A stretch of DNA of 57,383 nucleotides. Source: Pilibacter termitis. GTDB lineage: Bacteria > Bacillota > Bacilli > Lactobacillales > Streptococcaceae. The stretch is from positions 1 through 57,383 of the forward strand of contig NZ_FUXI01000022.1 of the NCBI RefSeq assembly GCF_900167335.1. The letters are read 5' to 3'. The notes beneath the pieces were generated by a model, which was given only the letters and a program-made list of their open reading frames with translations, was not told the DNA's origin and ran no database searches. Position numbers and translations under genes: made by a program. This document shows, in pieces, positions 44,534-48,016 of this stretch (position 1 is the first letter of the stretch; each line of letters opens with the position of its first letter).

Positions 44534-44658
44534 GTCTAGCTAGGAGGGGCAGGAGTTTGGTCGTTGTTCGCAATGCTACTTGAAACTTCGTTTCAAGCAA
44601 GTAAATAGCATGACTCACTACGACAAACTCCTGAACACCCCTCTTAGCTTTTCTTATT
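44534..44658. repeat. Repeat B, copy 1
   Basis: A long hairpin: outer arms AGGAGTTTGG / AAACTCCT, middle arms including CAATGCTA / TAGCATG, inner arms CTTGAAAC / GTTTCAAG around TTC. The arm sequences differ from copies 2 and 3 but remain paired. The unit ends with the same CTTTTCTT-like tail as copy 2. Confidence 0.75.
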
Positions 44659-44784
44659 GTCTAGCTGCGAGGGGCTGAAGTCTGGCAACTGCTCACAATG
44701 TCGCTAGAAACTTACGTTTCTAGTAAATGAACGACATGGTTCGCTGTTGCAGACTTCAAAACGCCCCTCTTCGCTTTTCTTGTC
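44659..44784. repeat. Repeat B, copy 2
   Basis: Outer arms GAAGTCTGGCAACTG / GTTGCAGACTTC, middle arms ATGTCG / CGACAT, inner arms CTAGAAAC / GTTTCTAG around TTAC. It is tandem with copy 1. The conserved unpaired parts (GTAAATGA-type after the inner hairpin) are shared. Confidence 0.75.
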
Positions 44785-44871
44785 ACCACATAGCTTTCGT
44801 CGATTTCCTCGATAATCGAAAAACTAGCTAATTTAGTCTTAAGCGGAGTTTTTAGAGGTGCCCTATTGCAA

Positions 44872-44910
44872 AAAAACCACATAAAATCTGTTAAATTTCA
44901 TGTGGTTTTA
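44872..44910 (-). terminator. pyrG terminator
   Basis: On the minus strand AAAACCACATGAAATTTA and its complement form a stem around a short loop, followed by TTTTTTT. It lies between the pyrG stop and repeat A. Confidence 0.8.
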
Positions 44911-44923
44911 TTTGGTTCTCTAC

Positions 44924-46525
44924 TTAATTCCCCGTAACACTCGCACCAATAAATGCCTTAAACAAGCCTTCTGGACGATTTGGGCGACTTGATAATTCAG
45001 GGTGGTATTGACACGCTACAAAGAATTTATGTTCGGTCAATTCAATGATTTCCACCAAACGATTGTCTGGAGAAACTCCTGAGAACGTAAGCCCTAATTC
45101 CTCAAATTGTTCACGGTATTTATTATTAAATTCATAACGATGACGGTGACGTTTTTGTACTACTTCTTCGTCATTGTACGCCGTTTTTGTTTTCGTTCCG
45201 TTTTTCAATTTTGCTGGATATAATCCTAGACGAAGTGTACCACCTAAGTTTTCAATTTCTTCTTGATCTGGCATTAAATCAATGATTTTATGCGGTGTCG
45301 ATTGGTCTAGTTCGTTAGAGTGAGCATCTTTTAGACCTGCCACATTGCGTGCAAATTCCACACAAGCTAATTGCATACCAAGACAAATACCTAAAAATGG
45401 TACATTTTCTTCACGAACATAGCGAATCGCCTCGATTTTCCCTTCTGTTCCACGCTCACCGAAACCACCCGGCACAATGACTCCATTCATTCCTTTGAGT
45501 TTTTCTGCCACATTTTCACGTGTAACATCATTTGAGTTGACCCAGTGTAAGTCAATCTCGCTATCCCACGCATAACCAGCGTGCTTGAGTGCCTCTACAA
45601 CTGAAAGATAAGCATCTGGCAATTCTACATATTTTCCAACAAGAGCGATTTTCACTTTTTTCGATAAATTCATCACCTTGTCAACCATTGCACTCCACTC
45701 TGTCATATCGGCTTTTGGTGCCTCAATTTTCAAATGGTCGCAAACTAATTGATCCATATCTTGAGCTTGCAAGTTCAGCGGAATTTGGTAGAGATGTTCT
45801 ACATCAAGCGACTCAATGACCGCCTCAGGTGCCACATCACAAAATTGTGCCAATTTGTTTTTAATCCCTTGATTGACAGGTTGCTCTGTACGAACAACCA
45901 ACATATTTGGCTGAATCCCCAAACCACGCAATTCTTTTACAGAATGCTGTGTAGGCTTTGTTTTCATTTCCCCTGCTGCCTTGAGGTAAGGAATAAGTGT
46001 CGTGTGAATATACATCACATTGTCGCCACCCATGTCACTTTTCATCTGACGAAGTGCCTCGATAAATGGCAAGGACTCAATATCTCCCACCGTTCCACCA
46101 ACTTCAGTAATAATGACATCACTATCAGTGGTTGTTGCTGCACGTGTGATTTTCTCTTTCAACGCATTGGTAATGTGCGGAATCACTTGCACCGTCGCAC
46201 CAAGATATTCGCCTTTTCTCTCTTTACGCAAAACTTCCGAATAAATTTTCCCTGTGGTCACATTTGAATACTTGTTTAAATTAATGTCAATAAAACGCTC
46301 ATAATGCCCAAGGTCTAGGTCTGTTTCTGCACCATCATCTGTTACAAATACTTCTCCATGCTGATAAGGACTCATTGTTCCCGGGTCAACATTGATATAC
46401 GGGTCAAATTTTTGAATCGTCACCTTTAGTCCACGATTTTTGAGCAAGCGTCCTAAACTTGCCGCAACAATCCCTTTCCCAATAGATGATACTACGCCAC
46501 CTGTAACAAAAATATACTTGGTCAT
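44924..46525 (-). CDS. pyrG: CTP synthase
   Basis: This 533-residue protein has an N-terminal synthetase domain ([19 protein letters not shown], then [20 protein letters not shown]-type motifs) and a C-terminal glutamine amidotransferase domain ([17 protein letters not shown], nucleophile in [17 protein letters not shown], and YHPELSSRP). It converts UTP to CTP with glutamine as nitrogen donor. Full length. It is preceded by a CTP-sensitive leader (46635-46734), and rpoE lies just upstream on the same strand. Confidence 0.98.
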
Positions 46526-46634
46526 TGTTGTGCCTCCATGCTTTCTTTTTTGTTTGCTTTTTCTAGGGAATAAATACTGACTTCATTCTAAAAAACGTTG
46601 TGCTACTACATTTTAGAGACGCATCAGTATAAAA

Positions 46635-46664
46635 AAGAAAAAACTCCCAACTGGTGTTGGGAGC
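46635..46664 (-). terminator. pyrG leader attenuator terminator
   Basis: On the minus strand CTCCCAAC, ACCA, GTTGGGAG followed by a T run form a strong terminator between the start point and the pyrG ATG. When CTP is low, extra G residues added at the GGGC start would pair with the CU-rich 5' arm and prevent it forming (mechanism known for Bacillus and Lactococcus pyrG). Confidence 0.88.
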
Positions 46665-46694
46665 TGTAACTTCAAACCGACTTCCTAATGAAGT

Positions 46695-46734
46695 GCCCGA
46701 AGAATATAATACTGATTTTAGAAGGAAATGTCAA
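46695..46734 (-). promoter_or_regulatory. pyrG promoter with GGGC start
   Basis: TTGACA (46734-46729), 17 bases, TATTAT (46711-46706), then seven bases to GGGC (46698-46695). This is the arrangement for reiterative G addition at the start point in CTP-regulated pyrG genes. It begins just after the rpoE stop. Confidence 0.88.
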
Positions 46735-46745
46735 GTGTGACGAAA

Positions 46746-47342
46746 TTATTTTTCCTCTTCATCCTCTTCCACAAAATCATCTTCGTCATCATCATCTACG
46801 TCAACTTCAACGTCATCTTCCACTTCTTCGTCATCTAAGATGATTTCTTTTAGGTCGCTGTCGTAAGCAACTACTTCATCAGCCTCATCGTCATCATCAT
46901 CGTCAAGCGTAAGGTCGTCCTCTTCATCAACGTCATAATCGTCCTCTGGGTCGTCATCATTGTAGTCGATAATGTCATCATCGTCACTTGTCGCAAACGC
47001 ATTGATACGTTTTTTCTTCTTGCGTGGACGGTTTTCTTCTTCTTCGTCCTCGTCAACGTGAGAAATTTCTTCGTCTACTTCGTCAATCGCATACCAGCTA
47101 CGAAGTCCCCAACGATTTTCACCAAGTGAAATAAAACTTCCGTCAATATTTAAATCTGTATAAAATTGACTTAAACCATCACGAATTTCAGCATCACTTT
47201 TCCCTAGGTAATTTTGAATTGCATTTACCAAGTCAGAGAAGTCAATCACATCACCTTTGTTTTCCAAAATTGCATGTGCAACTTCAATCATGGACAATTC
47301 ATCACGATTTTGTCCTTCAAATTCCTTTAATTCTATTGTCAA
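46746..47342 (-). CDS. rpoE: RNA polymerase delta subunit
   Basis: The product has 198 residues from TTG 47342, chosen because GAGGAG lies 10 bases upstream and family members begin there ([20 protein letters not shown]). The N-terminal domain (1-95, HARE-HTH) has [20 protein letters not shown] and [10 protein letters not shown]. The C-terminal ~100 residues are almost all Asp and Glu, the disordered tail of this Gram-positive subunit that helps recycle polymerase. It is the gene upstream of pyrG. Confidence 0.96.
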
Positions 47343-47480
47343 TTTGGGTACACTCCTCAAAAAGAATTTCACTCGTCAATAAGCAAGTGAATTTCTACTC
47401 ATTTTAGACATCACAAAATTGTCCTTACTCTACAAAATACCATTATAAGAGTTTTTTCGCTTGCAGTCAACGAGTACACT

Positions 47481-47870
47481 TTACATTTTTTTCGCTTTCG
47501 TACGTCCGTCCCAGCCGTCGTAACCCGTTTTTAAAATGTAAATATCGGTAAATCCTTGTTTTTTCAAAATAACTGCTGCTCGCCCTGCTTGTTGACGTCT
47601 TGCATCATAAAGCAAAATTGGCATATCTTTTCGCAAAGCTCCTGATGTTTGTTTAAGGGTCATCGTCGGAAAACTTCTTGCCCCCATAATATGATTGGCA
47701 TCAAAAGTTGCCTTATCACGCACGTCAATAATTTGAGCATTACGCATTTTTTCCTTAAACTCCGCATTATCAATCAATTTCGCTGCTTTTTTAACAGAAA
47801 AATAACTCCAAACTGCTTGAATGACTAATGCTAATAATATTACTACTAAAACAATGTTTACTACTGCCAT
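47481..47870 (-). CDS. Membrane-anchored rhodanese-like protein lacking the active cysteine
   Basis: The product has 129 residues from the ATG at 47870 (AAGGAAG nearby). One N-terminal membrane helix (IVLVVILLALVIQAVW) is followed by a rhodanese fold: IDVRDKATFDANHIMGARSF, then ILLYDARRQQAGRAA, where the catalytic cysteine loop should be; Asp stands in that position. YILKTGYDGWDGRTK ends it. So it is probably not a sulfurtransferase; in related bacteria this inactive membrane rhodanese lies beside glcK, role unknown. The frame upstream of the ATG runs into repeat B. Confidence 0.85.
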   Translation of the reverse strand: MAVVNIVLVVILLALVIQAVWSYFSVKKAAKLIDNAEFKEKMRNAQIIDVRDKATFDANHIMGARSFPTMTLKQTSGALRKDMPILLYDARRQQAGRAAVILKKQGFTDIYILKTGYDGWDGRTKAKKM

Positions 47871-47897
47871 GTTCAATACTTCCTTATTTCCTTTTTT

Positions 47898-48016
47898 AGT
47901 TGTTTGAGACTTGCAGGAGTTTGGCAACTGCTCAATGTTGCACTCAAAACTCTGTTTTGAGTAAATAAATGCAACGTTTCGCTGTCGCAAACTCCTTAAC
48001 GCAAGTCTACGCTTTT
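47898..48016. repeat. Repeat B, copy 3, overlapping the end of glcK
   Basis: Outer arms AGGAGTTTGGCAACTG / CTGTCGCAAACTCC, middle ATGTTGCA / TGCAACGT, inner CTCAAAAC / GTTTTGAG around TCT. The end of the repeat (48007-48016) supplies the last codon and stop of glcK. It fills the gap before the rhodanese start. Confidence 0.78.

Follow-up and report, generated by a model that had tools for sequence, protein, structure and literature searches.

Introduction

The repeat families closest to the one described here are the REP sequences and REPINs, the ERIC sequences and the bcr elements. Hairpins of the REP/REPIN kind show compensatory changes, the ends of REPINs are highly conserved and RAYT genes are present in the genome (PMC3116915), a GTAG or CGTC tag is named in the title of PMC3733652, and REPs lying fewer than 16 nt behind a stop codon have been reported to lower translation (PMC12306157). 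ERIC/IRU/RU-1 sequences, of ~127 bp in the case of ERIC (PMC2267715), are transcribed with their neighbours, their orientation matters for mRNA decay, and they have a 7-bp terminal inverted repeat (TIR), a target-site duplication (TSD) and TA ends (PMC2229807). The bcr1-bcr18 repeats of the Bacillus cereus group are intergenic, occur in untranslated regions and operon spacers, and in some cases have a conserved secondary structure (PMC3446304); Bcr1 is 167 bp long, with 31 copies in B. anthracis (PMC2267715). Here we describe B, a repeat in a 57,383-nt stretch of DNA from Pilibacter termitis (contig NZ_FUXI01000022.1; the whole stretch is called the window), where an original prediction made from the sequence alone had noticed three copies of a palindrome with paired base changes. 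We think, at a probability of roughly 55%, that B is a new family of mobile hairpin repeats of ~124 nt that lie between the genes of operons and in their mRNAs, and that it is like REP, ERIC and bcr1 in kind.

B shares with the REP/REPIN-RAYT system its dispersed palindromes, tandem clusters, compensatory changes and sites close behind stop codons. REPINs, as they are described, have conserved ends and a RAYT, whereas the arms of B vary throughout, its genome has no Y1 match, its length is ~124 nt and its bulges are constant. Of 287 copies from the same genome, 159 have GTAG adjoining the outer stem, so that it is not constant, and none has CGTC/GACG; among 40 aligned relatives, GTAG is close to an end in 6. 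ERIC is palindromic and of comparable size, and the gene-junction placement and strand bias of B are what a hairpin of that kind would show, but none of the TIR, TSD and TA ends reported for ERIC was found in B, which has arrays of up to eight units, a covarying fold and a varied sequence. The bcr1-bcr18 repeats, compared by description, are like B in location and, for some, in structure, and unlike it in having fewer copies; the B. cereus group belongs to another order of Bacilli than the host of B. BOX of Streptococcus pneumoniae is a modular repeat with an inner block in variable number. B, compared by description only, is similar in being an inner block repeated variably within another element, here called A, but unlike BOX it also occurs freely and in arrays without A. 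The attC sites of integrons, which are marked by core sites around the cleavage point and by an integron integrase, were considered too, for a likeness in keeping structure and not sequence.

Results and Discussion

A hairpin whose stems change together

B is present in dispersed and in tandem copies. They share a long hairpin whose stems covary and are interrupted by bulges that stay constant, and they are placed between co-directional genes, with a near-constant sense strand in this genome. The fold emerged from an alignment, A1, that was made by MAFFT without structure from 50 of 127 distinct copies (less than 90% identity) together with unit 3 of the window. When its 8,128 column pairs at least four columns apart were ranked by mutual information with average product correction, the top 16 were all stem pairs. 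Across these 51 diverse copies 95.9% of cells pair and both-sided changes occur in 29 of 37 pairs, giving a covariation score of 0.477 compared with 0.186 for shuffled alignments and 0.055-0.120 for slid partners; for four of five covariation measures, none of 500 shuffles did as well, the fifth, the number of further pair types, being not special (107 of 500). Linkage tracks the fold and not distance along the DNA: the adjusted normalised mutual information is 0.29-0.92 for paired arms, which are up to 87 columns apart, and 0.06-0.47 for neighbouring segments on one arm. The covariation score also exceeded shuffles and slid partners in alignment A2, the numbers from which lean towards structure because it was fitted to the model.

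Constant sequence in B is found where the hairpin bulges or forms internal loops, above all in the AGTAAATAAAC region. Each side also has a constant T-C step; in our reading these steps are tandem G-A/A-G when the minus strand is considered. The stems are quite different, with 28 different outer-stem 5' strings in 280 copies, a set comprising the distinct copies of the 287 full units shorter than 130 nt, in which 34 inner pairs were scored and the three outermost omitted. A1 columns 72 and 75, in the bulge motif T-AA-A / C-AA-G, seem to covary, the two having the same scores against columns 49 and 82; their co-change could reflect either a small contact or a subfamily marker.

All three copies of the original prediction are matched by a covariance model and fold below their shuffles, and the arm differences that it quoted are present in the sequence. 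On both strands they beat dinucleotide shuffles in folding energy (z -5.7 to -9.1), and in each of six folds (three units, two strands) 0 of 200 shuffles folded as well. The observation is thus confirmed, and it extends further than had been stated. The genome (G000) contains at least 368 B units, 318 of them full, in 138 tandem arrays of one to eight units, a lower bound obtained from 436,440 of 2,794,241 bases in stretches fetched around matches. The model used, R1, was built from 51 copies and at most 150 candidates were scored in this genome, all of them places that were filled; elsewhere at most 61 candidates per genome (58 genomes), 10 (335 genomes) or 8 (395 genomes) were scored, so that the counts from these scans are lower bounds. 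BLAST searches of the same genome returned at least 114 matches to element A with its two B units and at least 57 to unit 3 alone, 40 candidates being scored in each. The covariance-model scan found no fourth unit in the window up to an E value of 1. One genome thus offers several hundred natural replicates of a hairpin with jointly changed stems, with the copies borne by A as a built-in control, which makes it testable whether paired changes come from RNA selection or from copying of one arm to the other, and by what route small palindromes for which no transposase is known have reached their places between genes.

B often lies between a stop codon and the next Shine-Dalgarno motif

Of the arrays outside element A, 93 are flanked on either side by open reading frames (ORFs). 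Co-directional genes enclose 67 of these, the sense strand being minus in 66 and plus in 1; 17 are between convergent genes and 9 between divergent genes. The corresponding numbers for A-borne arrays (minus sense, plus sense, convergent and divergent) are 9, 7, 5 and 7. Among co-directional arrays the ratio of minus to plus is thus 66:1 outside A and 9:7 within it. The stop codon of the gene upstream in the sense direction is at most 10 nt from the array in 48 of 88 cases and between -42 and +11 in 62, compared with 3 of 21 genes that enter from the other side and 2 of 29 A-borne arrays at the 10-nt limit. On the start side a Shine-Dalgarno (SD)-like motif with a start codon begins no more than 22 nt past the array end in 49 of 75 arrays, taken from those outside A that had a gene on the start side and sufficient flanking sequence, while 200 shuffles gave a mean of 6.8 and a maximum of 13. 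The usual order in the sense direction is stop, AAAAGCG...B...CTAGAC, AAAGGAG, start.

The most likely interpretation, by analogy with REPs within 15 nt of a stop codon and their effect on translation (PMC12306157) and with the influence of ERIC on decay (PMC2229807), is that the hairpin acts in the mRNA at the stop/SD junction. The copies would be transcribed together with the neighbouring genes, and the minus strand would fold as a hairpin at the junction, where it may, in the manner of REP and ERIC, affect how the upstream gene terminates and how the message decays, and where it would be tolerated; copies in the opposite orientation may have been selected out or never made. Some mobilising activity would have dispersed the copies, which also appear to ride on element A, and unequal exchange or slippage may enlarge the arrays. 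The stems could be kept paired by selection against unpaired copies together with the templating of one arm by the other during replication. A bolder proposal, which we regard as doubtful, is that B is a mobile element recognised by its fold and not its sequence, which machinery other than Y1 or RVT_1 proteins directs, in sense orientation, to the stop/SD junction, the inserted RNA hairpins then retuning operon expression. If this were true, targeting to junctions would make insertion almost harmless and let copies reach hundreds.

Probable insertions in an operon spacer, in element A and in an RNA gene

Unit 3 separates two minus-strand genes, a glucokinase-type ROK gene (glk) and a rhodanese gene. 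The distance from the glk stop codon to the rhodanese start codon is 136 nt here. In L105 and L101, which come from the named relatives whose glk genes are most similar to this one (82% and 79% identity, respectively), we count 21 and 30 nt, and the difference is B. None of the 80 named glk-orthologue loci contained a match to model R1 at E values up to 1. In the RNase P RNA gene of G018, a member of another genus, a peripheral hairpin has 140 nt compared with 8 in the Rfam model, and the predicted fold retains B as a long stem; judged by its position, we read this hairpin as P18.

Units 1 and 2 are B units, as had been predicted, but they are not free-standing: they lie inside an element resembling a miniature inverted-repeat transposable element (MITE), our element A, which the original prediction missed, and unit 3 is the only one of the three to stand alone. 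A without B is a 155-bp unit, and B, when carried, is at one internal site. At most 2 mismatches from the TIR, A half-sites number 266 in the genome, a reversed-pattern control giving 0, and the 4-bp flanks were identical at 17 of 21 other A sites examined. Could B itself be an ordinary MITE, moved through TIRs by a DDE transposase? It inserts, it is short and palindromic, and its genome harbours the MITE-like A, yet the variety of its outer-stem 5' strings contrasts with the constant TIR and like flanks of A, no constant TIR being present in B. The B insert within A is 122 bp long and shows one shared base at most, the host sites having no exact empty counterpart. We consider this explanation very improbable.

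The dispersal of B is clear from its hundreds of copies and from the insertions inferred in the operon spacer, in element A and in rnpB of another genus. A likeness of at least 95% is reached by 16.1% of the 87 pairs of units that are two apart in an array, by 12.0% of the 150 pairs of neighbours and by 0.4% of pairs from different arrays; the closest relative of a full unit was found in another array for 205 of 287. Local similarity within arrays, taken with nearest relatives in other arrays, points to both local duplication and dispersal. Of 35 long B units, 34 contain a further palindrome, C, of ~60 nt (AGTCTTTC...GAAAGACT) close to the tip, making a hairpin within a hairpin.

Relatives of B in the Streptococcaceae

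R1 matched B in 4 of 58 genomes, that of P. termitis included, and a second model, R2, was built from 26 matches in four genomes. With R2, B was detected in 12 of 335 Streptococcaceae genomes, again including its own, which represent 6 of 10 genera; the other 323 had no match at E 1e-4. Beyond the family just two others among 395 genomes of the order matched R2, both weakly, and these (L262 and L263) were not counted as members of B, being weak and missing the conserved bulge, although they stayed in alignment A5. One B-positive genome, G026, has a glk gene identical over 942 bp to that of Floricoccus penangensis, which places the family as Streptococcaceae. The sole other genome of the same genus seen (G001, 59% complete) had no B match, so the expansion of B is perhaps specific to this species.

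When 40 matches from other genomes were aligned, of which 38 are distinct and two are the weak ones, the stems differed and the plan was the same. Their alignment leans towards structure because it was fitted to the model. In it 87.1% of cells are paired and both-sided changes occur in 35 of 37 pairs, a number that 10 of 500 shuffles also attained. The covariation score is 0.788, with 0.210 for shuffled alignments and no more than 0.152 for slid partners, the number of further pair types again being not special (150 of 500). The claim that structure rather than primary sequence is conserved holds therefore both within the genome and, with differing stems, across genera. Of the outcomes that the original prediction named as refuting it, neither a total of just three copies nor, as far as Rfam goes, a match to a described family came about.

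A different possibility is that B is mainly a functional cis-regulatory RNA that has been domesticated at many operons and is not a selfish repeat. The purS-purQ copies L093 (G018) and L241 (G067) differ by six both-sided changes that keep Watson-Crick pairs and five one-sided changes through G-T, and the carA-carB copies of G026 and G019 by one both-sided pair and two one-sided changes through A-C, so that stems are kept with compensated changes at orthologous junctions; there are several such pur/pyr junctions among the relatives. However, the 138 arrays of P. termitis are scattered over its genome, and neither G001, as far as its 59% goes, nor most family genomes had a match. We judge this possibility improbable, and prefer to see B as a mobile hairpin repeat. 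Junctions in pur or pyr operons host several of the relatives' copies (L083, L084, L093, L241, L248 and L257); by our reading of the translations they appear to be purS-purQ, purH-purD, pyrB-carA and carA-carB. At L093, L241, L242 and L082, which are from other genera, the SD-like motif precedes B and the start codon follows it, the genes being purQ, a YebC-like gene and others, again by our own reading, as if the hairpin bridged the gap.

RNA selection or copying between the arms

In the 280 copies 9,069 of 9,480 scored cells are Watson-Crick pairs, 150 are A-C, 59 are G-T and 202 are other combinations. An A-C on the plus strand is a G-U on the minus strand, and the sense strand has an excess of wobble in 117 versus 50 distinct contexts. 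In other genera the excess switches with the sense strand, A-C and G-T cells numbering 25 and 3 in minus-sense copies and 8 and 12 in plus-sense copies (Fisher p 0.0004), for rows that are not independent and classes that were assigned by hand, 9 of 40 being dropped as unclear and 2 as duplicates (L250). In unpaired columns T>C changes (6/2459) and A>G changes (23/2128) run opposite to those in stems (35 vs 17). As a clean proof of RNA, wobble was given up after the unpaired-column control and the share of a single locus, L093, had weakened it.

A number of results count against our interpretation of B as a hairpin of the mRNA. L093 alone contributes 5 of the 12 G-T cells in the plus-sense class. 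In unpaired columns G>A (8/542) exceeds C>T (7/1656) per site in the same direction as in stems, so part of the wobble excess may be mutational; a strand bias of mutation in transcribed DNA would have the same sign, and the unpaired columns are divided, G>A agreeing with the stems and T>C not. Wobble read on the minus strand is scarce, at 150 of 9,480 scored cells, which is rare for an RNA family. This low level argues for arm-to-arm copying as a contributor and fits copying at the level of DNA. The placement data have exceptions, since 26 of 88 sense-upstream stops are more than 11 nt away from the array and 26 of 75 start sides have no SD pattern, and the gene boundaries are the ORF calls of this analysis and not curated annotation. 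Orientation is mixed in other genera, the plus strand being sense in several. Finally, no mobilising enzyme of two obvious kinds was detected in the P. termitis genome: Y1 (PF01797; IS200/RAYT) gave 0 matches there, with 7 of 38 genomes positive and the E. coli control matched, and RVT_1 (PF00078, the sole reverse transcriptase model used) also gave 0, with 2 of 12 B-positive genomes matching. The two obvious routes are in this way removed, barring sequence missing from the 98.67%-complete assembly or an enzyme since lost. The original prediction had proposed looking for an HUH enzyme that acts on the repeat; this was sought only as Y1.

A rival explanation is at the level of DNA alone; in it, B is a transposon recognised by its fold as a single-strand hairpin, the covariation arises by template switching from arm to arm and the RNA has no role. 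The strand bias would then exist because the plus strand is polar in an operon, or because insertion tracks the replication fork. The high proportion of Watson-Crick cells agrees with this, as do both-sided changes that far outnumber one-sided changes with a standard pair kept, and the A-borne copies have no strand bias. Template switching during replication has been reported to create and maintain hairpin stems (PMC8794818). Yet copying between arms should erase the bulges and constant internal mismatches, which recur across genera, and since bulges are kept we argue that arm copying alone is insufficient. A flush position at the sense stop is not predicted either. Among the 12 B-positive genomes Y1 occurs in G019 alone, with internal stops. 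Polarity of the plus strand as the cause of the bias was not borne out by a terminator scan, which sees only simple hairpins with loops of 3-8 and called none on the plus strand of the window units; two short terminators were called on the minus strand inside unit 3. We hold the DNA-only explanation to be possible but rather unlikely. The original prediction offered a folded RNA or a mobile DNA recognised by its hairpin, and these are still the right pair of options: its interpretation is supported, in that dispersal is clear and the RNA side is favoured by the sense-strand bias and, weakly, by wobble.

Comparison with described repeat families

At gathering scores Rfam 15 had no match in the window. 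A permissive search of 44400-48100 gave ten sub-threshold matches, the best with an E value of 1.1, of which the two overlapping B scored 19.2 and 19.3 bits, the thresholds being 80 and 117. In five relatives' loci it returned the RNase P RNA that surrounds one B, along with a tRNA, a T-box below threshold and a snoRNA at chance level, B itself being unmatched. Searches of phage, plasmid and viral-contig sequences with B gave no match. Among the open-access titles and abstract beginnings listed, a set outside which most of the subscription literature lies, no described family fits B. It would be most surprising if B belonged to a published family such as Efa-1/efar of E. faecalis, BOX or RUP of pneumococcus, or bcr. 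The sizes and intergenic locations are similar, Table 3 of PMC2267715 giving Efa-1 (163 bp, 65 copies), BOX (84) and RUP (63), but the region has Rfam matches at chance level only, no listed title describes B, and the matches outside the Streptococcaceae are two weak ones, the families having been compared by description.

Features of the window and related loci

The coordinates are collected in Table 1. Element A with units 1 and 2 sits between nrdD and pyrG (Pfam), which are convergent.

Table 1. Positions of B units, element A and associated features (window coordinates unless a locus is named).
Feature	Position	Strand	Remarks
B unit 1	44534-44657	+ as aligned	minus is the usual sense strand elsewhere in the genome; covariance-model match and fold
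B unit 2	44659-44783	+	tandem with unit 1; model match and fold
B unit 3, free-standing	47898-48021	+	outer arm contains the stop codon of the upstream gene; model match and fold
Element A with two B units	44461-44863	+	MITE-like; 155 bp without B; 18-bp TIR GGGCACCTCTAAAAACTC
Element A TIRs	44461-44478 and 44846-44863	+ and -	
TATT flank of element A, left copy (target duplication)	44457-44460	.	read from sequence
TATT flank of element A, right copy	44864-44867	.	read from sequence
Stop/start junction around unit 3	47868-48009	-	TAG 48007-48009 of ROK/glucokinase-type gene, B minus strand, rhodanese ATG 47868-47870
rnpB with B insert	L099:1445-1951	-	RNase P RNA gene of G018; ~140 nt B in peripheral hairpin
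Palindrome C, example among others	L238:1001-1184 (G000 C11:43000)		

Upstream of nrdD, at 41872-41942, the window also contains an element of ~71 bp with the TIR of element A on both ends, with one mismatch.

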